This document shows positions 5,786-50,501 of a DNA stretch of 64,000 bases, one piece after another. Source of the stretch: Deroplatys truncata. Its lineage: Eukaryota > Arthropoda > Insecta > Mantodea > Mantidae. Under the pieces are notes generated by a model. The model saw nothing but the letters and a program-made list of their open reading frames with translations, ran no database searches and was not told where the DNA came from. The translations under genes and the position numbers were made by a program. Every line of letters begins with the position of its first letter. Position 1 is the first letter of the stretch. Location of the stretch: the NCBI GenBank assembly GCA_030765065.1, contig CM060988.1, positions 196,104,565 through 196,168,564 on the forward strand, read 5' to 3'.

Positions 5786-7012
5786 ATGGATACCAAAACA
5801 AAAGTTAAAGAAGAAGTTGATCTTCTAGAAGAAGAGAGAGCAATTGAGAAAAACTTTTCATACTCAAAACCTGAAAGAATATTTGAAATTGATGCTACAA
5901 ATAGTCAATATGACACTAAAATGTTTCACAAAATAAACAACAGAGAGGTTGATAATTTAAACACAGGCTTATCAAATGAAAGAGAACTCTGCTCCATGAA
6001 TCATGAGAGAAATTATGGAAATGACACTATAACAAGGAGAAATGATGTTGAAATGGATCATAAAATAGATATCAAACAGGAAGATGATGTTTTATACACA
6101 GGCTTACTAAATGAGAGAGAACTTTGTTCCATGGATAATAAGAGAAATTATGAAAATGATACTATAACAAATGTGAATGATTTTGAAATTAACAACAAAA
6201 TAAATATCAAAGAACAAATTGTCTCTTCAGACACAGTCTCACCAAATCACAGAGTGTGTTTTTCCACAGATTTTGGAAATAGATTTAAGAATGATGCTGT
6301 CGCATGTAGTGGTTTTGAATTGGATAATACTAAAGTATTAAAAGAGGGGGCTTTTATTTCTGATACTGGTTTTCACAAAGAAGAGAAGTGTTTTTCTTCA
6401 GAACAAACAGATATCAAACAGGAAGATGATGTTTTATACACAGGCTTGCTAAATGAGAGAGAACATTGTTCCATGGATAATAAGAGAAATTATGACAATG
6501 AAAGTATAAGAAATGTGATTGATTTTGAAATGGACCACAAAATAGATATCAAAGAAGGAGTTGATATTTTAGACACAGGCTTACCAAATGAGAGAGAAGT
6601 TTGCTCTGTGGATCATGAGAGAAACTATGGAAATGATACTACAAGGAGAAATAATTTTGAAATTAACAACAAAATAAATATCAAAGAACAAGTTGTCTCT
6701 TCAGACACAGTCTCATCAAATCACAGAGTGTGCTTTTCCACAGATTTTGGAAATAGATTTAAGAATGATGCTGTCACATGTAGTGGTTTTGAATTGGATA
6801 ATACTAAAGAACTAAAAGAGGGGGCTTTTATTTCTGATACTGGTTTTCAGAAAGAGGAGAAGTGCTTTTCTTCAGAACTTGTCAAGAAGATAAAGAAAGA
6901 GTTTATCACATATAATGAGTGTGGTGAAGTGAGTGTTCAAAGAATGTCGACAGAAACAGAATGCATATCAGAAGCATCGGTTTCAAGCACTTTACTGCAG
7001 TGTGAAAACAAG
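5786..7012 (+). CDS. Zinc-finger gene copy 1, exon 1: acidic N-terminal repeat region
   Basis: First coding exon of a C2H2 zinc-finger protein. The acceptor AG is at 5776-5777, the ATG at 5786 follows GTGTGTGAA, and the donor AG|GTAAGT is at 7012/7013, leaving phase 0. It encodes 409 residues starting MDTKTKVKEEVDLLEEE, rich in D, E, K and N. About eight degenerate repeats of roughly 44 residues can be seen, with a core like DIKQEDDVLYTGLLNERE or INNKINIKEQ, then CFSTDFGNRFKND. Repeats 3-4 and 7-8 are near duplicates. VKEE, IKQE and IKKE fit the SUMO consensus (hydrophobic-K-x-E), which is only suggestive. No KRAB, ZAD or BTB domain is visible. The frame also stays open upstream through the acceptor, so an earlier coding exon is possible. 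Confidence 0.85.
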
Positions 7013-11439: not shown

Positions 11440-12144
11440 TGAGGTCATTCATTAAATTCCAGGACTATATCTGCTGTGACCGAATAGATCACATGATTGA
11501 CATGCATACGCAGCAGCACTGACAAGTAATAAGCTTGAAGACCAGCTACACAAAGTTTCAAAGTCATTGATACCTGTTACATAGGTTTGTATTGGTGCGT
11601 GCTCACTCACCCTGGTGAAGTCATAATGGACTCAAAACTGGGACAGAGAGAATACATCAAATTCTGTGTGAATATCGGAAAATTGCCAACCAAAACCCAT
11701 AGAACGTTGAAAAAAGTTTACAGGAATGAAGCAATGAGTCGAATGAGATGCTTTAAGGGGTATTCACATTTCACAAATGGCAGAACATTGCTGGAGGATA
11801 ACCAAAGGCATTATCATGGGGTTTTTAATTTTTTTTTTTCTCCACATTTGCAGGATTGTGTACTGCGAATTTCTGCGGTTAAAACGGTTTTTGTTTCCCA
11901 ATTTGAAGTTTAAATTAAAAGGTCGTTTTGGCATGATGGATGAGATCCAATGCAAATTACAGAAGGTGCTTAATGTCCTTAAACAATTACACTTCCAGGG
12001 TGCATTCCAAAAATGGCAGAGGTGCTGGTATCAGTGCATAACTGCACAAGGGGACTACTTTGAATGGGATGGCAGGCAAATTTAAATCAGGTAATTTTAT
12101 TTCCATTTACGGGACCAGTCTCGGAATTTAATGATTGCACCTCA
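11440..12144 (+). mobile_element. Mariner-like deletion derivative (type 2) in intron 2
   Basis: A 705-bp element flanked by TA on both sides. Its inverted ends are TGAGGTCATTCATTAAATTCC (11440) and the reverse complement of GGAATTTAATGATTGCACCTCA (to 12144). The plus strand encodes the N-terminal helix-turn-helix part (REYIKFCVNIGKLPTKTHR, then KKVYRNEAMSRM near 11650-11760) followed directly by the C-terminal tail (FQGAFQKWQRCWYQC, then AQGDYFE near 11990-12065). The catalytic core is missing, which is typical of internal deletion. The matching copy in unit 2 is also 705 bp. Confidence 0.85.
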
Positions 12145-13976: not shown

Positions 13977-15516
13977 GTTAACTGTAGATACAACTTGTCC
14001 TGAAACTTCTGGAGTAGAAGCTATGGAACCATTTGAAATAGACAAAAATGTTTACACTCAAAGATGTACGAAGAAGCTTGAGGAGAATGGTGAAACTGAT
14101 ATTTCAGTATTACATTCAAAAAAGCATTTTCTGGTTAAAGATACAGACTTACAGCATGAACTTTCTGGAAAGATATTTTCTGCCAAATCAGCATTGCATT
14201 TGCCTGACTTGATTCATGCAGAAAACAAAGTATATAACTGTAATGTTTGCCAGATGAGTTTCACTCAACAAGAAATGCTGAAAAGACACAGGTTAGTTCA
14301 TGAGGGTAAAAAGTCACACAAATGTAATGTTTGCAATAAGGCCTTCACTCGGCTATGGGATTTGAAATCACACACTTTGATTCATGAGGGGAAAAGGCCC
14401 CACAAATGTAATGTTTGCAATAAGACCTTTATCCAGTTAGCAGGTTTGAAAAAACACAGTTTGATCCATGAGGGCAAAAAGCCACACAAATGTAATGTTT
14501 GCAGTAAGACATTTACTCGACGATGGTATTTGAAATCACACACTTTGATTCATGAAGGTAAAAAACCCCATAAATGTAATCTTTGCAATAAGACCTATAT
14601 TCAGTTAGCAGATTTGAAAAAACACAGTTTGATCCATGAGGGCAAAAAGCCACACAAATGTAATGTTTGCAGTAAGGCATTTACTCAGCTAGCACATTTG
14701 AAAACACACAGTTTGATTCATGAGGGCAAAAAGCCATACCAATGTAATGTTTGCAATAAAAGTTTTACACGTTTATCACATCTGAAACAACACAGTTTGA
14801 TTCACGAGAGTGAAAAGCCACACAAATGTAATGTTTGCAATAAGACCTTTACTTCTATATGGAAATTAAAAGCACACAATATAATTCATGAGAGTAAAAA
14901 GCCGCACAAATGTAATGTTTGCCATAAGAGTTTCAAACGGGTATGCAATTTGAAAACACACAGTTTGATTCATGGCGGTAAAAAGCCACATAAATGTGAT
15001 ATTTGCAATAAGGCCTTTATTCGGCTATCAGATTTGAAAGTACACATTTTGAGTCATGAGGGCAAAAAGCCACACAAATGTAATGCTTGCAATAAAAGTT
15101 TTACTCGTTTATCATATATGAAAGCTCACATGTTGATTCATGAGGGTAAAAAGCCACACAAATGTAATGTATGCAGTAAGGGATTTATACAGCTAGGAAA
15201 GTTGAAAAGACACAGTTTGATTCACAAGGGCATAAAGCCACACAAATGTAATGTTTGCCATAAGTGTTTCATTCTGCCATGGAATTTGAAGACACACCTT
15301 TTGATTCATGAGAATAAAAAGCCACACAAATGTAATGTTTGTAATAAGACCTTTACTCAGCTAGGACATTTGAAAGGACACAGTTTTATTCATGAAATTA
15401 AAAAGCCACACAAATGTATGATTTGCAATAAGAACTTTATTCAGCTAAATAATTTGAAAAAACACAGCTTGATTCATGATACAGTCATCCTCCATGGTCT
15501 GGTGGTAGCATGCTAG
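13977..15516 (+). CDS. Zinc-finger gene copy 1, exon 3: fifteen C2H2 fingers
   Basis: Terminal coding exon, joined in frame to exon 2 (AG + G). It starts LTVDTTCPETSGVEAMEPFE; the ATG at 14023 is internal in this model but could be an alternative start. After a spacer of about 75 residues come 15 fingers of the form C-x2-C-x12-H-x3-H, with linkers mostly HEGKKPHKC in place of the usual TGEKPYKC. Fingers 4-5 look like a tandem copy of fingers 2-3. The product is probably a nuclear DNA-binding protein; target and role are unknown. The spliced protein is 935 residues. The last residues (VILHGLVVAC) and the TAG at 15514 come from an inserted SINE, so the original array was longer. Confidence 0.9.
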
Positions 15517-15570
15517 CCTCTAGTTCCCAAGGTAATGTGTTCAAACCTGGCAGAGGGCAATCAATTTTTT
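15492..15570 (+). mobile_element. Partial SINE (family 1) that ends the reading frame
   Basis: CCATGGTCTGGTGGTAGCAT, then GCTAGCC (box A) and GTAATGTGTTCAAACCTGGC (box B); the sequence then returns to zinc-finger DNA near 15583. It is the 5' part of the SINE seen complete at 16021. Confidence 0.8.
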
Positions 15571-15582
15571 GGGCTCCATTAA

Positions 15583-16015
15583 GAGATTCATGAGGGCAAA
15601 AAGTCACATAAATGTAATGTTTGCAATAAAACCTTTACTCATTTATCATATATGAAAGAAAATTGGTTGATTCATGAGGGTAAAAAGCCGCACAAATGTA
15701 ATGTTTGCAGTAAGGGATTTACACAGCTAGGGAGGTTGAAAAAAGTTTGATTCACAAGGGCATAATGCCACACAAATGTAATGTTTGCCATAAGTGTTTC
15801 AATCTGCCATGGAATTTGAAGACACACCTTTTAATTCATGAGAATAAAAAGCCAGATAAATGTAAATTTTGTAATAAGATCTTTACTGAGCTAGGACATT
15901 TGAAAAGACAGTTTTATTAATGAACGTAAAAAACCAAACAAATGTATGATTTTGCAATAAGAACTTTATTCAGCTAAAGAATTTGAAAAAAAAAAACAGC
16001 GTAATTCATGATACA
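15583..16015 (+). pseudogene. Dead zinc fingers after the SINE
   Basis: About five decayed finger repeats (SHKCNVCNKTFTHLSYMK, PHKCNVCSKGFTQLGRLKK, then HKCFNLPWNLKTH and others) with frameshifts near 15745, 15910 and 15950. The stretch repeats 15090-15480 at an offset of about 530 bp, so it is a tandem copy of fingers 11-15 plus SINE. Confidence 0.8.
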
Positions 16016-16020
16016 GTCAT

Positions 16021-16285
16021 CCTCCATGGTCTAGTGGTAGCATGCTAGCCTCTAGTTCCCAAGGTCATGTGTTCAAACCTGGCAGAAGGCAATGAATGTT
16101 TTGGCTTCCATCAAAAGGGAAATAAAGCTGCCTGGTCCTTTGTCTTTGATTTATGGCACATAAGGGAACCTGCAGTCTGATAAAGTTGTCTGATCAAAAT
16201 TTCCATTTTTTCATGCCTAATATAGAATGGGATTCTAAGAAACATAGCAGTTAAAGAGCACCCATAAATAAAAATTCGGTTTAAC
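16021..16285 (+). mobile_element. Full-length SINE, family 1
   Basis: Box A (TGGTCTAGTGGTAGCATGC), box B (GGTCATGTGTTCAAACCTGG), body (AAAGGGAAATAAAGCTGCC) and tail (AATATAGAATGGGATTCTAA, later ATAAATAAAAATTCGG). Zinc-finger DNA resumes at about 16308. Confidence 0.85.
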
Positions 16286-16304
16286 TGACCTTTTTTTATT
16301 TATG

Positions 16305-17560
16305 ATAGCAAAAAGCCGCACAAATGTAATGTTTGCCATAAGAGCTTTATGCGGCTATGATACTTATTTGAAAGCACACAGTTGATTCAGAGGTTGAAAA
16401 GTCACACGGTTGTAAAATTTGCAGTAAGGGCTTTACACAGCTAGAGAAGTTGAAGACACAGTTTGATTCATGAGGGCAAAAAGCCGCACTAATGTAATGT
16501 TTGCAATGTGAAACTTTACTCAGGTAGGGAATCTGAAAATGCACAATTTGATTTATGGGGTAAAAAGAGATACAAATTTAATGTTTGCAATAAGAACTTT
16601 GCTCATCAATGTAATTTGAAATCAGAAAGTTTGATTCATGAGGCTAAAAAGCCACGCAGATATAATAGTTAAATATGAGGTTTACTTGGCTATCAATCTG
16701 AAACTACACAGTTTGATTCATCAAGGTAAAAGTCCATATAAATGTAATCCTTGCAATAAGAGCTTTACTTGGTTGTCAGATTTGAAGAGACAGTTTGATT
16801 TGGGAGAGTAAAAATCCAAACCAAAAAAAATTAATCGATTTAATGAAAGATCCCTTTTATATAATCTAAATTGACATTCATTTTTGTTTATTTTAAATAA
16901 CCTTTCTACATTTCACATCTAAACACCATTTTGTTTTCGTAGCAGCTGCTTGATATTGACATTTCGTAGATGTAGTACATATGTAATATTTCCAATAAGA
17001 CCTTAACTGTGCATCAATTTTGTAAAAGAATACACTTTGATTCATCGGACTAAAAGTCACACAATTGTAATGTTTGCAGTAGGAACATTATTTAGCAATT
17101 AAAAGACACTTTGATTCAAGCAAATTTAATCTTTACAAGAAGAACTTTGCATTTGAAGACACAGTTTGATTCATGAGGGTGAAAACACTCACGAATGTAA
17201 TGATAAAATAAGTGCCTCACTCGACTATGATTTATGGGGCAGAAAAATACTTATGAGCACAACAGCCTACAAATGTAATGCTTCCAATAAGACCTGAGCT
17301 AGCACACTTGAAAACGCACAGCTGGATTCATGAGGGTAAAACCTCTCATGTACGTTATGTTTGCTAGAAGAGCTTTACTCTATTATCAGATTTGAAAGCA
17401 TGGGTTCTATTCATAAGGGTAAAAGTCACATAAATATAATGGTTGCAAAAACAGCATTTATTTGCTATCACATAAATGAAAAGACAATGTGATATCTGGG
17501 GGTAAATATTCTCAAAAGTATGTTTGGAAAAGCAACTTTACATATAAAAACACAGTGACT
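16305..17560 (+). pseudogene. Long tail of decayed zinc fingers
   Basis: Roughly a dozen broken repeats of AAAAAGCCxCACAAATGTAA, TTTGCAATAAGxxCTTTACT and GATTCATGAGG. They have many indels and grow less recognisable toward 17560. Unit 2 has lost the piece matching about 16730-17480. Confidence 0.8.
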
Positions 17561-21280: not shown

Positions 21281-22562
21281 TTCAGAAACCAAGTCTTATT
21301 TGAACAGTAGTAGAATTGGATGAAAGTCTCGAACAAATTATGCAAAAGTATATGGAAAACCATTTAGTGCAGATAACAAGTTCTCCTTTTCTTTTCTGGT
21401 TGACCAATGACAAGACTGTACTGCAATTACAGAGTAGAATACAATGGACAAAACGTTCAGTATGTAGGAAGTTCTGACTACACATGATCAGTAAGGAGGA
21501 GAGTCTGATGTAAAATGGTAGATATATCATTCTATTCAATTCCTGTACCAAGAATGAAGTTGGTACAAGTAATCTGTTTCTTTGGCGTCACTGTTAGATT
21601 TCCCAGATATATATTTGGTAGACCTTCATTTAATATAGTGATGCAGAAATAAAATGACTCTACAGAATTGCAGTTTCAGGTAATGAGTCTGGTAATTGAG
21701 AACAATATTACTATTCAGACATATGTTCTAAAGCAGGTACCTAAATGTTACAGATGAAAGAGTGTAATGAATACATTATTTTAGAATTTACAATAGTGAG
21801 TTTTGTATGCACTTGAAGAATTATGTTGAATAAAATTATCCTCACTGTTTTATTCTGCTTAAAACAAGATTTTAATTTGTCAGGAAGATACAGTTTCACA
21901 GTAGCAGAGTAGTTTAATGCACTCTTGGTTTTAACACAAGCTAAATGGTGGCATAGCTAGGTTCTCAGAGACTGATGCTAAAGATTCCAAACATGTGTAC
22001 AGTAGTTTTAAAACTAATTCTTATACGCATTAAATTATAAATTACATTTAACCATATTATGCATTAAGATGTAACAGTTATTTTCGAGTAACTATTAGCT
22101 TTAACTACATTCCAATATGAACAATGTAGTTTGAACTTAGCGGCCCACACATAGTTTGCTACTAAACAGCATTAATTGTTTATTCATACCCATCTACCTG
22201 TGAAGAACAAAACCTTGTGTACCTACAGTTGCATCTTAATGCAGCACATACAATTTTGCTGCCTGAGTACTGATTGACCTGTCATCTGTGGCCTGTGATG
22301 TATATTATTCAAAATGATAAGCATCGAGTTGAAGTAATTATTTGCCGATAAGGGATACTAATGCAGTGACATGCAGTAAATGTCATCCAGGTTCTGAAAC
22401 CATCACATTACCTTAGTAACCATTAATGCAATACTAGTTGTTATTGTTAGCTTGTTAACCGTTATTGGTTAGCTAGTCACTTTGGTAGCCATTATATCAA
22501 AGAAAGATTACAAAATAACTGTGTTAATTTCTGCCCTTCTCTATTATGTATACATTATTGTT
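21281..22562. repeat. Linker segment, paralogous to 33640-34500
   Basis: TATTTGGTAGACCTTCATTT near 21613 recurs near 33927, and GGCATAGCTAGGTT near 21951 recurs near 34292, in the same order. An older duplicate of this linker therefore exists besides the unit-2 copy. Confidence 0.7.
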
Positions 22563-23622
22563 GGTTTTACAAATTTGAAGAACAGTGATTGCAATAATGA
22601 GATGTGAATTGCTTGATTTAGCTTGTCTAAAATATTTTTGTTTTACAAATATGATATCCAATAATGAGATGTGAATTTCTTGATTTAGATTATCTAAAAT
22701 ATTTTTGTTTTACAAATTTGAAGAACATTGATATCCAATAATGAGATGTGAATTGCTTGATTTAGCTTTTCTAAAATATTTTTGTTTTACAAATTTGAAG
22801 AACATTGATATCCAATAATGAGATGAGAATTGCTTGAGTTAGCTTGTCTAAAATGTTTTGTTTTACAAATTTGAAGAACATTGATATCCAATAATGAGAT
22901 GTGAATTGCTTGAGTTAGCTTGTCTAAAATGTTTTGTTTTACAAATTTGAAGAACATTGATATCCAATAATGAGATGAGAATTGCTTGAGTTAGCTTGTC
23001 TAAAATGTTTTGTTTTACAAATTTGAGGAACATTGATATCCAATAATGAGATGTGAATTGCTTGAGTTAGCTTGTCTAAAATGTTTTGTTTTACAAATTT
23101 GAAGAACATTGATATCCAATAATGAGATGAGAATTGCTTGAGTTAGCTTGTTTAAAATGTTTTGTTTTACAAATTTGAAGAACATTGATATCCAATAATG
23201 AGATGTGAATTGCTTGATTTAGCTTGTCTAAAATATTTTTGTTTTACAAATATGATATCCAATAATGAGATGTGAATTTCTTGATTTAGATTATCTAAAA
23301 TATTTTTGTTTTACAAATTTGAAGAACATTGATATCTAATAATGAGATGTGAATTGCTTGATTTAGCTTTTCTAAAATATTTTTGTTTTACAAATTTGAA
23401 GAACATTGATATCCAATAATGAGATGAGAATTGCTTGAGTTAGCTTGTCTAAAATGTTTTGTTTTACAAATTTGAAGAACATTGATATCCAATAATGAGA
23501 TGTGAATTGCTTGATTTAGCTTGTCTAAAATGTTTGGTTTTACAAATTTTAAGAACATTGATATGCAATAATGAGATGTGAATTGTTTGATTTAGCTGCG
23601 TATTTGTCTAAAATGTTACACT
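22563..23622 (+). repeat. Minisatellite, about 14 units of about 76 bp
   Basis: Tandem units beginning GTTTTACAAATTTGAAGAAC, followed by ATTGATATCCAATAATGAGA and TGTGAATTGCTTGATTTAGC. Units 2 and 10 share the same internal deletion (CAAATATGATATCC), and units 1-4 resemble units 9-12, so a block of units was itself duplicated. Unit 2 of the segmental duplication has only three units at 57856-58095. Confidence 0.95.
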
Positions 23623-24114
23623 GCCTTATCATTACAATAAGATCAACATGATCAAAACACGTGTTATTTTGGACCTTGGGTCTTGTATAATTAAAATAAC
23701 AAAATGTAGACCTTGTTCTAGGTTCACTTTACTAATTAGTTCACACTGTCCCTTAGTTGGCACTTTATGGCTATGCTGTTGATCCTCAAGAGCAGCCAAA
23801 GTTTGAGGGAAATTACAGTGAGTATTTTAACTAGTATGCCTCTTAAACTAAAAAAGAAAGGAAGAGATGAGTATGAGCTGAGCAGAGGCTGTAGCAAGCT
23901 GTAGTAATTGACACATTCCTCTGGTTTTGAGATTTTCTCAAGGTTAGGTTTAAGATTGTGTGTGTGTGGGTGCGTGTGTGTGTTTTTTTTTCAAATAATG
24001 GGTATAATATCAGAAATTGCATTGTAAATGAGGTGAGAGGGAAATTTAGTCTCTCACCTAAATCTTCAGCTAAATGATGATGCATACAGTGAAATTTATA
24101 TTGCACGTGTTAAA
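23623..24114. other. Linker, right part, with a short TG repeat
   Basis: Contains a TG-rich microsatellite at about 23955-23984 and a T run. It aligns with 34480-34860 (GGCACTTTATGGCTATGCTG against GGCACTTTGTGGTTATATAG). No gene seen. Confidence 0.6.
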
Positions 24115-35699: not shown

Positions 35700-37716
35700 T
35701 AATCGGCGCAACAGTTCTAGACACGTGAAAATCTTAATGAGAGCTATGATGCGAGTTGCTTACCAGATCAGGTGGTGACTGGTCGTGTGTGCAGGAGTGC
35801 GTGGGACAGTCATCGTCAAATATCCTCACCGGTTATGCATTGCGTTGCGCAGATAAACTTAGTTATATACAGTATATTAAAATCCACGCTGTAAAAATCG
35901 CTTAATATAAAAAAACGCTGTCAATCATTGCCTCCAATTCTTCCACATCTAACAACCCTTCCTCTTCTGCGGAATCACTCACATTATTGCCGTCATCACT
36001 GCTGTCACTACTTTCTGCACCATTATCCTGGATGAGAATTATTTCTATTTGATTTTCTGCAATTCCGTATTTTTCGGAATAATGATTCTTAATTTATTCA
36101 GCATGTCGCCATACATTTTCCCATTCTGGCCTTCCAATTTCAGCAAATTGCTGGCGTTATAACTGCTCCACATATTTTAATTTAAAAGTGATATTTCTGC
36201 ATGCCACCCATTTTTTGATATCAGCCCAGATTAATTCAATTGGGTTTAGATCTGGGCGATACGATGACAGTCTAAATACATTATGGCGATGTTGTATTAC
36301 TATCTGGTCAAGTATGTATGACTTCTGAAGCTGTTTGTTGGCTTTAATTAAGTTATATAGCTTTGTTTTACTCATGCTTTCATCTAAAGCTTTATTATGT
36401 CTAAGTAACCAAGGTCTCATTTATTCTTTCAAGGAAGTTGAGGTAGATGGTTTGTGAATTTGAGTGTTGACGCATTGTGAAGCATTGTCGATGACCAGAA
36501 CAGACCCAGCAGGCATATTAGGTATCAACATGGCGTTGATTCACTTCATGTAATTTTCTGTATTCATTTCTTGATGAAAATCTCCTGTTGTTTGTTGCGA
36601 CTTGTAAAAGAAGGGCATTTGGAATGAAGCCAATCTTTCCAACAGCATGAACGATAATAAGTATTTGCCCTTTGGCAACAGGTGCCTGCAAACCTAATTT
36701 GCTATCGTCACTCCAACTTTTAGATGCTGTATGACTGCTGTGTATGTATGACTCATCTTCATACATTATAGTATTTTTCTGAAATTTGTAGCACCACCTT
36801 GAAAATTGATGCTGATATAAGTACACATTGATATAAGTACATATAAAATTAGTCATTTGGAAAGGTAGAATCAGACTGAAAAATTAAATGTCATAGCTGG
36901 GATTTGAACCACAGATCTTAGGCTTTCCGTGCCGTTGCTTCAACTGACTAAGCTATCATGGCAACATTTACTTTTTATTTTATTTTATTTATTTATTTTG
37001 CTTTTCTGTTAGAACTCTTCTATTTGATTTCGGTTTCTTCCACTTGAACCCTAAATCTTTAATAATTTTTCTGAGATTTGTAGCACCACCTTAAAAGTTT
37101 CTGCTGTGTTTCAGCTGGATGAGCAATCTGCTTATTAATAGCACAGTTTTTTCTTCCACATAGGAATTGTGAATCTTGCGCCGAATGACGCATTCGAAAT
37201 CGTCTATTTCTGTAATATGTCTAGGGACCCCAGGCGTGTCAAATGGCATTCTTTCATCTATATGTTTTTTTTTCTTATCTTTGAGAACTCTGGAAACGGA
37301 ACTCGGTGAAACACCAGTTGCTTTGACTACTCTTTCTTTCACTCTCTTAAGGCTTTTGTGGAACTCGGACGAACATATATTTTCTTCCTTCATCTCTGCT
37401 TCTTGCTTCATGAAGTCGAGGACATTTGCAATTATTTCCCTACTTTGACTGTGTAACAACTTAGCACTCAACTTTGAAAACGTAGGAGCCATGGTTATAA
37501 ATATAACAAATATAAAGTAAGTACTATTTAGATACTGGTCTCTTTAAAATTACAACCAGATGCAAACACTTTCTATGCAGACTGTATGTGTTACGCACTG
37601 TGAGTAAGCAAAGGTGTTATATCGCTTTCGTTGATTAAGCTGAACATAAACCATTCCTAGGCTCGGCAGCTGGGCTGGCAATCAAGGTCACGATTCCAGA
37701 AGTTTTGCGCGAGTAA
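35700..37716 (-). mobile_element. IS630/Tc1-like transposon, inactive, unit 2 only
   Basis: A 2017-bp element with TA at both flanks (35698-35699, 37717-37718) and imperfect ends: TAATCGGCGCAACAGTTCT and, inverted, TTACTCGCGCAAAACTTCT. The minus strand encodes an N-terminal helix-turn-helix region (37492-37091, with VVKATGVSPSSVSRVL), then YEDESYIHSSHTASKSW (about 36770-36720, first D), VLVIDNAS (about 36500-36480, second D) and DLNPIELIWADIKKWVA (about 36255-36205, E). A stop at 36421-36423 and other breaks inactivate it. About 83 residues separate the second D from E, far more than the 34 of Tc1. Unit 1 keeps the empty site at 2930-2947. Confidence 0.85.
36840..36962 (-). mobile_element. 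tRNA-like SINE nested in the IS630-like element
   Basis: Minus strand: GATAGCTTAGTCAGTTGAAG (box A) and TGTGGTTCAAATCCCAGC (box B). It lies between two similar stretches of about 40 bp (36772-36812 and 37064-37104, core ATTTGTAGCACCACCTT), so the transposase was split by an insertion and a local duplication. Confidence 0.65.
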
Positions 37717-41397: not shown

Positions 41398-42285
41398 ATG
41401 GAAACCAAAACAAAAGTTAAAGAAGAAGTCGATCTTGTAGAAGAAGAGATAGCAATTGAGAAAGACTTTTCTTACTCAAAACCTGAAAGAATATTTGAAA
41501 TTGATGCTACAACTAGTCAATATGACACTAAAATTGTTCACAAAATAAACATCAGAGAGGTTGATAATTTAGACACAGGCTTATCAAATGAAAGAGAACT
41601 CTGCTCCATGAATCATGAGAGAAATTATGGAAATGACGCTATAACAAGGAGAAATGATTTTGAAATGGATCATAAAACAAATATCAAACAGGAAGATGAT
41701 GTTTTACACACAGGCTTACTAAATGAGAGAGAACTTTGTTCCATGGATAATAAGAGAAATTATGAAAATGAAACTATAAGAAATGTGATTGATTTTGAAA
41801 TGGACCACAAAATAGATATCAAAGAAGGAGTTGATATTTTAGACATAGGCTTACCAAATGAGAGAGAGGTTTGCTTTGTAGATCATGAGAGAAATTATGG
41901 AAATTATACTATAACAAGGAGAAGTAATTTTGAAATTAACAACAAAATAAATATCCAAGAACAAGTTGTCTCTTGCGACACAGTCTCACCAAATCACAGA
42001 GTGTGCTTTTCCACAGATTTTGGAAATAGATTTAAGATTGATGCTGTCTCATGTAGTGGTTTTGAATTGGATAATATTAAAGAATCAAAAGAGGGGGCTT
42101 TTATTTCTGATACTGGTTTTCAGAAAGAGCAGAAGTGTTTTTCTTCAGAACTTGTCAAGAAGATAAAGGAAGAGTTTATCACATATAATGAGTATGGTGA
42201 AGTGAGTGTTCAAAGAATGTCGACAGAAACAAAATGCCTATCAGAAGCATCGGTTTCAAGCACTTTACTGCAGTGTGAAAACAAG
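41398..42285 (+). CDS. Zinc-finger gene copy 2, exon 1: acidic N-terminal repeat region
   Basis: Same structure as 5786-7012: acceptor TTTTTCTACAG to 41389, ATG at 41398, donor AAG|GTAAGT at 42285/42286, phase 0. It encodes 296 residues beginning METKTKVKEEVDLVEEE. Only five repeats of about 44 residues are present against eight in copy 1; the missing ones match a unit that is repeated in copy 1. The frame is intact, with scattered substitutions. Confidence 0.85.
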
Positions 42286-46724: not shown

Positions 46725-47429
46725 TGAGGTCATTCATTAAATTCCAGGACTATGTCTGCTGTGACCGAACAGATCACATGATTGACATGCATATGCAGCA
46801 GCACTGACAAGTAATAAGCTTGAAGACAAGCTACACAAAGTTTCAAAGTCATTGTTACCAGTGTTACATAAGTTTGAACTGGTACTTGCTTACTCACCCT
46901 GATGAAGTCATAATGGACTCAAAACTGGGACAGAGAGAATACATCAAATTCTGTGTGAATATCGCAAAATTGCCAACCAAAACCCATAGACCGTTGAAAC
47001 AAGTTTACAGGAATAAAGCAATGAGTCGGATGAGATGTTTTAAGGGGTATTCACATTTCACAAATGTCAGAACGTTGCTTGAGGACAACCAAAGGCATAT
47101 CATGGGGTTTTTGATTTTTTTTTCCTCCACATTTGCGGGATTGTGTACTATGAATTTCTGTGGTTAAAACGGTTTTTCTTTCCCAATTTGAAGTTTAAAT
47201 TAAAAGGTCGTTTTGGCATGATGGATGAGATCCAATGCAAATTACAGAAGATGCTTAATGTCCTTAAACAATTACACTTCCAGGGTGCATTCCAAAAATG
47301 GCAGAGGTGCTGGTATCAGTGCATAACGGCACAAGGGGACTACTTTGAACGGGATGGCAGGCAAATTTAAATCAGGTAATTTTATTTCCATTTACGGGAC
47401 CACTCTTGGAATTTAATGATTGCACCTCA
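46725..47429 (+). mobile_element. Mariner-like deletion derivative (type 2), unit 2 copy
   Basis: Counterpart of 11440-12144, also 705 bp with TA flanks and the same core deletion, so the deletion predates the unit duplication. Confidence 0.85.
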
Positions 47430-49249: not shown

Positions 49250-50501
49250 GTTAACTGTAGATACAACTTGTCCTGAAACTTCTGGAGTAGAAGCTATGGA
49301 ACCATTTGAAATAGACAAAAATGTTTACACTCAAAGATGTACGAAGAAGCTTGAGGAGAATGGTGAAACTGATATTTCAGTATTACATTCAAAAAAGCAT
49401 TCTCTGGTTAAACATACAGACTTAGCGCATGAACTTTCTGGAAAGATATTTTCTGCCAAATCAGCATTGCATTTGCCTGACTTGATTCATGCAGAAAACA
49501 AAGTATATAACTGTAACGTTTGCCAGTTGAGTTTCACTCAACAAGAAATGCTGAAAAGACACAGGTTAGTTCATGACGGTAAAAAGTCACACAAATGTAA
49601 TGTTTGCAATAAGGCCTTCACTCGGCTATGGGGTTTGAAATCACACACTTTGATTCATGAGGGTAAAAGGCCCCACAAATGTAATGTTTGCAATAAGACC
49701 TTTATCCAGTTAGCAGGTTTGAAAACACACAGTTTGATCCATGAGGGCAAAAAGCCACACAAATGTAATGTTTGCAGTAAGGCATTTACTCAGCTAGCAC
49801 ATTTGAAAACACACAGTTTGATTCACGAGGGCAAAAAGCCATACAAATGTAATGTTTGCAATAAAAGTTTTACACGTTTATCAGATCTGAAGCAACACAG
49901 TTTGATTCATGAGAGTGAAAAGCCACACAAATGTAATGTTTGCAATAAGACCTTTACTTCTATATGGAAATTAAAAGCACACAATATAATTCATGAGAGT
50001 AAAAAGCCGCACAAATGTAATGTTTGCCATAAGAGTTTCAAACGGCTATGCAATTTGAAATCACACAGTTTGATTCATGACGGTAAAAAGCCACATAAAT
50101 GTGATATTTGCAATAAGGCCTTTATTCGGCTATCAGATTTGAAATTACACATTTTGATTCATGAGGGCAAAAAGCCACACAAATGTAATGCTTGCAATAA
50201 AAGTTTTACTTGTTTATCATATATGAAAGCTCACAGGTTGATTCATGAGGGTAAAAAGCCACACAAATGTAATGTATGCAGTAAGGGATTTATACAGCTA
50301 GGGAAGTTGAAAACACACAGTTTGATTCACAAGGGCATAAAGCCACACAAATGTAATGTTTGCCATAAGTGTTTCAATCTGCCATGGAACTTGAAGATAC
50401 ACCTTTTGATTCATGAGAATAAAAAGCCACACAAATGTAATGTTTGCAATAAGACCTTTACTCAGCTAGCACATTTGAAAAGACACAGTTTTATTCATTA
50501 A
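49250..50501 (+). CDS. Zinc-finger gene copy 2, exon 3: twelve C2H2 fingers
   Basis: Joined in frame to exon 2; spliced protein 726 residues. It lacks the two fingers corresponding to copy-1 fingers 4-5. It stops at TAA (50499-50501) right after the finger matching copy-1 finger 14, where copy 1 reads HEIKKPHKC. A thirteenth, otherwise good finger follows the stop (50502-50585). Finger format C-x2-C-x12-H-x3-H and linkers are as in copy 1. Against copy 1, eleven changes hit helix positions -1, 2, 3 or 6 and only about seven hit the rest of the fingers. Role and target are unknown. Confidence 0.9.

Follow-up and report, generated by a model that had tools for sequence, protein, structure and literature searches.

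A conserved finger framework and fast-changing DNA-contact positions in tandemly duplicated poly-zinc-finger genes of the mantis Deroplatys truncata

Two neighbouring zinc-finger genes of the mantis Deroplatys truncata raise the question of whether the residues that contact DNA have changed under selection for new binding specificity, as a sequence-only reading of this locus had proposed by likening the genes to PRDM9 and some KRAB-ZNF clusters, or whether these residues have drifted, were overwritten by gene conversion between fingers, or belong to two haplotypes of one locus. The window analysed here (the whole stretch of 64,000 nucleotides, GC content 33.7%) lies on contig C14 of a 4.29-Gb genome and holds both genes, referred to below as copies 1 and 2. 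The presence of introns and decayed fingers beside the arrays provides neutral controls, thus making selection, drift and conversion separable.

Copies 1 and 2 arose by tandem duplication within a large, lineage-specific poly-zinc-finger family. The duplicated segment extends over 3166-30187 on the copy 1 side, in pieces matching 38727-64000 on the copy 2 side at 89-98% identity (both on the plus strand). The array flanks of the two segments have diverged by about 3-6%, some flank parts are 99-100% identical, and divergence along the duplication ranges from <1% to >8% in 500-bp bins. At least seven tandem copies are present on the contig, two of them inside the window; the five additional ones (P0, P1, P2, P5 and P6) were found within 100 kb on each side plus 40 kb further upstream, and the stretch ~114 to 164 kb downstream yielded none. 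P6 is identical to copy 2 across the 12 fingers. P5 has lost a zinc ligand of its ninth finger (F9) by a His to Leu change (window numbering 83850-83933), and its array looks, from its sequence, fused to its own tail behind F14; in P0 and P2 a stop follows F9. P1, a mosaic copy, combines a copy-1-like 5' half that includes the N-terminal exon (0.2-1.4% divergence) with a copy-2-like finger exon, the copy-2-like part starting at about -92 kb (within L012-L021, window numbering -99900 to -80000). Other features of the window include a 76-nt tandem repeat at 22515-23684, much shorter in copy 2, broken retroelement reverse-transcriptase frames at 368-1592, and an Rfam tRNA match of 32.9 bits at 36889-36962 on the minus strand (ARAGORN reported no tRNA in the window). 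No relatives were found in phage and viral collections.

The zinc-finger exon of copy 1 (13977-15516, plus strand) probably follows an acceptor, TTGCAG, directly before 13977, and its array of 15 C2H2 fingers of 84 nt each occupies 14239-15498; the sequence-only reading was right about the array and where it lies. The corresponding exon of copy 2 (49250-50501, plus strand) contributes 12 in-frame fingers (array 49512-50501) and is ended in the twelfth by a TAA at 50499-50501, where copy 1 reads GAA; this TAA is common to P1 and P6, and the decayed tails carry GAA. The tandem C-x2-C-x12-H-x3-H units with 7-residue linkers are those of C2H2 poly-zinc-finger proteins; the best solved relative by sequence is ZFP568, and the solved PRDM9 array 5v3g was also matched. 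Copies 2, P5 and P6 lack two fingers of copy 1, F4 and F5 (14491-14658, plus strand), which P0, P1 and P2 have. The frame of copy 1 is closed by a SINE-like sequence (~15486-15584), which we take to be tRNA-derived and which contains the stop; behind it, a decayed continuation of the array (15585-17412, plus strand) holds a second copy of F11-F15 together with a second SINE-like piece (~16016-16111) that was duplicated with these fingers. The part of the copy 1 tail at 15480-16730 was used as a neutral control. Finger number thus differs between the copies through the loss of two fingers and through array ends shifted by the nonsense difference and the SINE-like insertion.

An acidic N-terminal exon lies at 5786-7012 in copy 1, where it opens with an ATG and closes at a GT donor that follows AAG (AAG|GTAAGT); translation and comparison with copy 1 place the N-terminal exon of copy 2 at 41398-42285 (both on the plus strand). 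In each copy this exon ends about 7 kb upstream of the array exon. It consists in copy 1 of 45-residue repeats (spacing 135 nt), and an in-frame block of ~114 codons is missing in copy 2. This exon is probably joined to the zinc-finger exon in one gene, and as it is left in phase 0 while the array exon is entered in phase 2, a further exon between them is likely. Its dN/dS between copies 1 and 2 is 1.29, which points to weak constraint. Pfam scans covered both exons of both copies and, of the 19 other plus-strand frames of at least 55 aa between 1652 and 13990, 17. The N-terminal exons matched no family above cut-off, and these scans, which smaller exons may escape, yielded no KRAB domain, no PR/SET domain ahead of the array and no N-terminal zf-AD (ZAD) domain. 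The acidic part carries VKEE/IKQE-like motifs, presumably SUMO-like. The intron of copy 1 contains a Mos1-type HTH remnant (11539-11913), and 46808-47167 reads alike.

Differences between the two arrays were counted after aligning them finger by finger and codon by codon, which leaves F4 and F5 in copy 1 without partners and 12 fingers in common. Amino acid changes affect 10 of 48 contact codons vs. 8 of 288 other codons (Fisher P = 2.6e-5), bearing out the proposed concentration at contact positions; the same fingers also carry 8 synonymous differences and a single nonsense difference. The ten contact codons (plus strand, copy 1 residue given first, positions by arithmetic from finger starts) span 14359-15378: D/G at position 3 (p3) of F2 (codon from 14359), K/T at p6 of F3 (14452), H/D at p3 of F7 (14779), T/S at p6 of F9 (14956), V/L at p6 of F10 (15040), R/C at p-1 of F11 (15106), R/T at p6 of F12 (15208), T/I at p6 of F13 (15292), and G/A at p2 (15364) and G/R at p6 (15376) of F14. 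The sequence-only reading had listed eleven such changes, the eleventh being I/N in F13; this one sits at -2 rather than -1 because the helix leucine is position 4, so that the -1 residue is L in both copies. The roughly seven changes it saw elsewhere compare with the 8 codons and the nonsense change counted here. F15 also differs (N/K at p2) and lies beyond the stop of copy 2, outside the 48 contact codons. Position 6 accounts for six of the ten contact differences, and without it the comparison becomes 4/36 vs. 8/288 (P = 0.033). When four finger columns are picked in every possible way (20,475 sets), 81 sets (0.4%) reach ten or more changes. In the decayed, untranslated fingers just downstream, none of 54 contact-codon bases differs between the copies, against 14 of 366 other bases.

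A neutral yardstick of 3.1-3.3% was obtained from differences at 211 of 6,835 intron columns and at 41 of 1,241 columns of the decayed-finger tail. Against the expectation from this neutral spectrum (nonsense codon counted apart, F15 left out), there are 10 contact replacements where 3.3 are expected (P(10 or more) = 0.0023, the rate being taken as known despite its spread between the 500-bp bins), 8 other replacements where 19.5 are expected (P 0.003), and 8 synonymous changes where 7.3 are expected. Contact sites have thus changed at ~3x the neutral rate and the framework at 0.3-0.4x. Synonymous changes, 8 in number, make a weak yardstick by themselves; the contact vs. synonymous counts alone give a ratio of 2.75 (one-sided P 0.028, or 0.006 with the tail added), and site counting gives one-sided P values of 0.07, 0.024 and 0.012 at kappa 1, 2 and 3, respectively. 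Codon maximum likelihood (ML) for copies 1 and 2 estimates dN/dS at 2.65 for contact codons (wC) and 0.31 for the others (wO), with P 2e-5 for wC = wO and P 0.053 (two-sided) for wC = 1; including F15 yields wC 2.85 (wC = 1, P 0.033). All P values in this study are nominal, as pairs were chosen by looking at helices and several test variants were run. The difference between contact and framework rates in copies 1 and 2 is secure; the significance of the contact excess over the neutral expectation is nominal, with P ranging from 0.002 to 0.07 between tests, and rests on ten events. Thus, the finger framework was conserved after duplication and the contact positions, above all p6, changed faster than neutral in this pair; the contact excess, taken together with the ML estimate, indicates that more than relaxed constraint seems to be at work.

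The additional cluster copies place part of these changes on branches. Once P1 had split off, the branch leading to copy 2 saw contact residues change at p6 of F3, p3 of F7, p-1 of F11 and p2 of F14 (copy 1 and P1 agree), and this branch has one clear other replacement (M/L in F1, private to copies 2 and P6); the copy 1 branch has changes at p6 of F10, p6 of F14 and p2 of F15, plus four clear other replacements. The change at p3 of F2 preceded the split of P1 and copy 2, and p6 of F9, F12 and F13 remained unpolarised owing to missing P2 fingers, a third state or disagreeing tails. ML over copies 1, 2, P1, P2 and P5 gave wC 1.82 and wO 0.46 (wC = wO, P 1e-5; wC = 1, P 0.063), and over copies 1, 2 and P1 only, wC 2.07 (P 0.13).

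The family is by no means confined to this contig. At least 163 matches to the array exon (86 of 12,627 candidates scored), 135 to the 87-residue pre-array segment (150 of 772 scored) and at least 206, in pieces, to the N-terminal exon (102 of 1,145 scored) were found in the genome, these figures being matches, not genes. Among the matches listed, clusters stand on C1, C13 and C14, and further matches lie on C7, C16, C755 and C787. A separate tandem array of seven pre-array segments, ~9.9 kb apart and in 106-aa frames, lies at G000:C16:653277469-653337266. ZAD, an arthropod domain, was listed at 47 places (150 of 275 candidates scored), none of them <90 kb from a listed family match, the nearest being ~96 kb away on C16. 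Altogether, 29 further exon stretches of the family were read. Over 306 fingers, the four most variable of 28 columns are p3, -1, 2 and 6 (the divergence bins over family fingers are not independent of one another, since a finger can enter more than one bin). In nearest finger pairs within arrays (111 pairs from 21 genes including copy 1, one gene kept per close group and pairs above a set number of differences excluded), divergence is 0.135 at contact, 0.085 at synonymous and 0.044 at other sites, giving a contact dN/dS of 1.59 (P 2.4e-5; gene bootstrap 1.27-2.01), with contact pN above pS in 18 of 21 genes. One array, L031 (C1:15402100-15403800), shows 0.358 at contact, 0.034 at other and 0.043 at synonymous sites over all its finger pairs.

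Comparison of further paralogues likewise revealed contact dN above other dN, though not in every pair; wC > 1 was mixed between young pairs. L048/L049 (3 contact, 1 other, 0 synonymous changes) repeats the pattern of copies 1 and 2; P0/P2 (0 contact, 6 other, 2 synonymous) and the nine clearly collinear fingers of L035/L036, cut by hand (0 contact, 12 other, 4 synonymous), do not. The twelve program-aligned fingers of the latter pair give 6 contact, 17 other and 3 synonymous changes, and in L028/L029 (wC 4.0, wO 2.8) other replacements are raised too. Five collinear young pairs pooled have wC 2.35 (P 0.018). Two other pools were not relied on. One of them, with wC 2.35 at P 1e-6, leans on L035/L044 (wC 0.74 over 4 unique reciprocal-best fingers); the strict reciprocal-best rule brings its five pairs to wC 1.66 (P 0.12), and such matching is biased the other way because contact-changing fingers lose reciprocity. 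The pair L031/L051 (wC 37) was discarded owing to a shifted finger alignment. The contact pattern is, therefore, recurrent over time within arrays, but not present in every young pair.

How much of this could arise without selection for new targets? The assembly could have set two haplotypes of one locus side by side, which would agree with the nearly identical flank parts; a single contig with seven or more unevenly spaced copies, the divergence of the array flanks, the unequal finger numbers and the match clusters elsewhere in the genome make this very improbable. A rather unlikely explanation, although compatible with several of the tests on copies 1 and 2 and on the cluster (wC = 1 is accommodated), is that constraint was only relaxed, so that contacts drifted at the neutral rate with the framework held; P1/P2 with wC 0.93, the four young pairs that remain once copies 1 and 2 are removed from the pool (wC 1.89, P 0.24) and the weakly constrained N-terminal exon are in line with it. 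Contact replacements at three times the neutral expectation in copies 1 and 2, a within-array contact dN/dS whose bootstrap range stays above 1, and the pooled estimate for all five pairs argue against drift of this kind.

Short gene conversion between fingers, with no recent selection in copies 1 and 2, is an unlikely account of the pattern as a whole, although some of the differences fit it. Conversion would show mainly at contact codons because fingers differ most there. The longest donor-shared stretch at contact differences averages 20.7 nt vs. 13.5 expected from random contact mutations in the same columns (P 0.013), whereas synonymous differences do not show this (P 0.55); at the F13 I/N base, main array and tail carry opposite states in copies 1 and 2, and P1 itself is a mosaic. 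With derived bases judged from P1, P2 and the tails, a donor stretch of at least 20 nt carrying the derived base exists at p6 of F3 and p2 of F14, six other differences lack one, and p6 of F9 and F12 could fit, depending on polarity. Between two and four of the ten contact changes may thus be due to conversion; removal of three or four leaves 7 or 6 vs. 3.3 expected (Poisson P ~0.05 or 0.12). Moreover, the donor pool itself has contact divergence above synonymous divergence, which conversion alone does not make. We therefore consider it probable, at moderate confidence, that after the tandem duplication which gave copies 1 and 2 the framework was kept, contacts changed faster than neutral, and selection favoured copies that bind new sequences. 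The proposal of selection for new specificity finds partial support in the contact excess in this pair and in the within-array ratio, with wC > 1 between copies being nominal only.

Under selection for new targets, each array would bind a long DNA site, a duplicate could move to another site by contact replacement together with finger loss or gain, and selection would then favour copies that bind new sequences. By the zinc-finger recognition code, the preferred bases would be altered by the differences in F7 (H3 to D), F11 (R-1 to C), F12 (R6/T) and F14 (G6/R), and loss of F4 and F5 would shorten the DNA site by about six bases. PRDM9 is known for a long array with contact diversity; the present family differs in comprising many tandem genes, with no PR/SET domain found by Pfam ahead of the arrays of copies 1 and 2. 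The suggested likeness to PRDM9 and KRAB-ZNF clusters hence extends to the mode of evolution and not to these accessory domains.

Among systems already described, vertebrate poly-zinc-finger expansions such as KRAB-ZNF share with the present family young tandem paralogues, contact changes and unequal finger numbers (PMC2604467); they differ by a KRAB domain, none of which was found by Pfam in the two exons of copies 1 and 2. The same paper (Emerson and Thomas 2009) reports contact-site selection in vertebrate zinc-finger sets and no significance in A. gambiae and D. melanogaster. The FiNZ-ZNF genes that Wells et al. (2023, PMC10547256) describe in cyprinid fish are likewise large in number, young and equipped with their own N-terminal sequence, with contact residues enriched for dN/dS > 1 in 2 of 7 clades; the N-terminal exons here have no Pfam match above cut-off. 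ZAD-ZNF genes resemble the present ones as fast-evolving insect poly-zinc-finger genes, Kasinathan et al. (2020, PMC7655104) describing selection in 12 of 90 genes, three of them in the ZNF domain, and a fast-evolving linker in several genes; they differ by the ZAD, absent from the exons scanned here. Finally, Panfilio et al. (2019, PMC6444547) describe >115 tandem-repeat zinc-finger proteins in the milkweed bug, some clustered, pseudogenes included, and no KRAB; in that description the milkweed bug and pea aphid proteins of this kind (ZF271-like/APEZ) have no domain besides fingers, in contrast to the shared N-terminal exon found here. No paper on the present family was found in the contact-site-selection literature, insects included, which is not proof of absence.

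Overall, the signal in the sequences is real, and these genes, whose predicted binding sites would differ, belong with the known diversifying poly-zinc-finger families. The acidic N-terminal part might be a means of silencing or marking repeated DNA, which, by analogy with PMC10547256 and PMC6444547, we would guess to be the most likely role. A further extension, possible but somewhat doubtful, is that ~100 or more poly-zinc-finger genes with an undescribed N-terminal exon form an arthropod counterpart of the KRAB-ZNF genes of mammals, selected for recognition of new transposons, with recombination also shuffling N-terminal and finger exons among copies. Contact-site diversification of poly-zinc-finger genes is established in vertebrates, and the 2009 survey gave no significance in fly and mosquito. 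The family appears large, young and clustered in this genome and, if binding differs as predicted, would provide an independent arthropod case of target shift after duplication.
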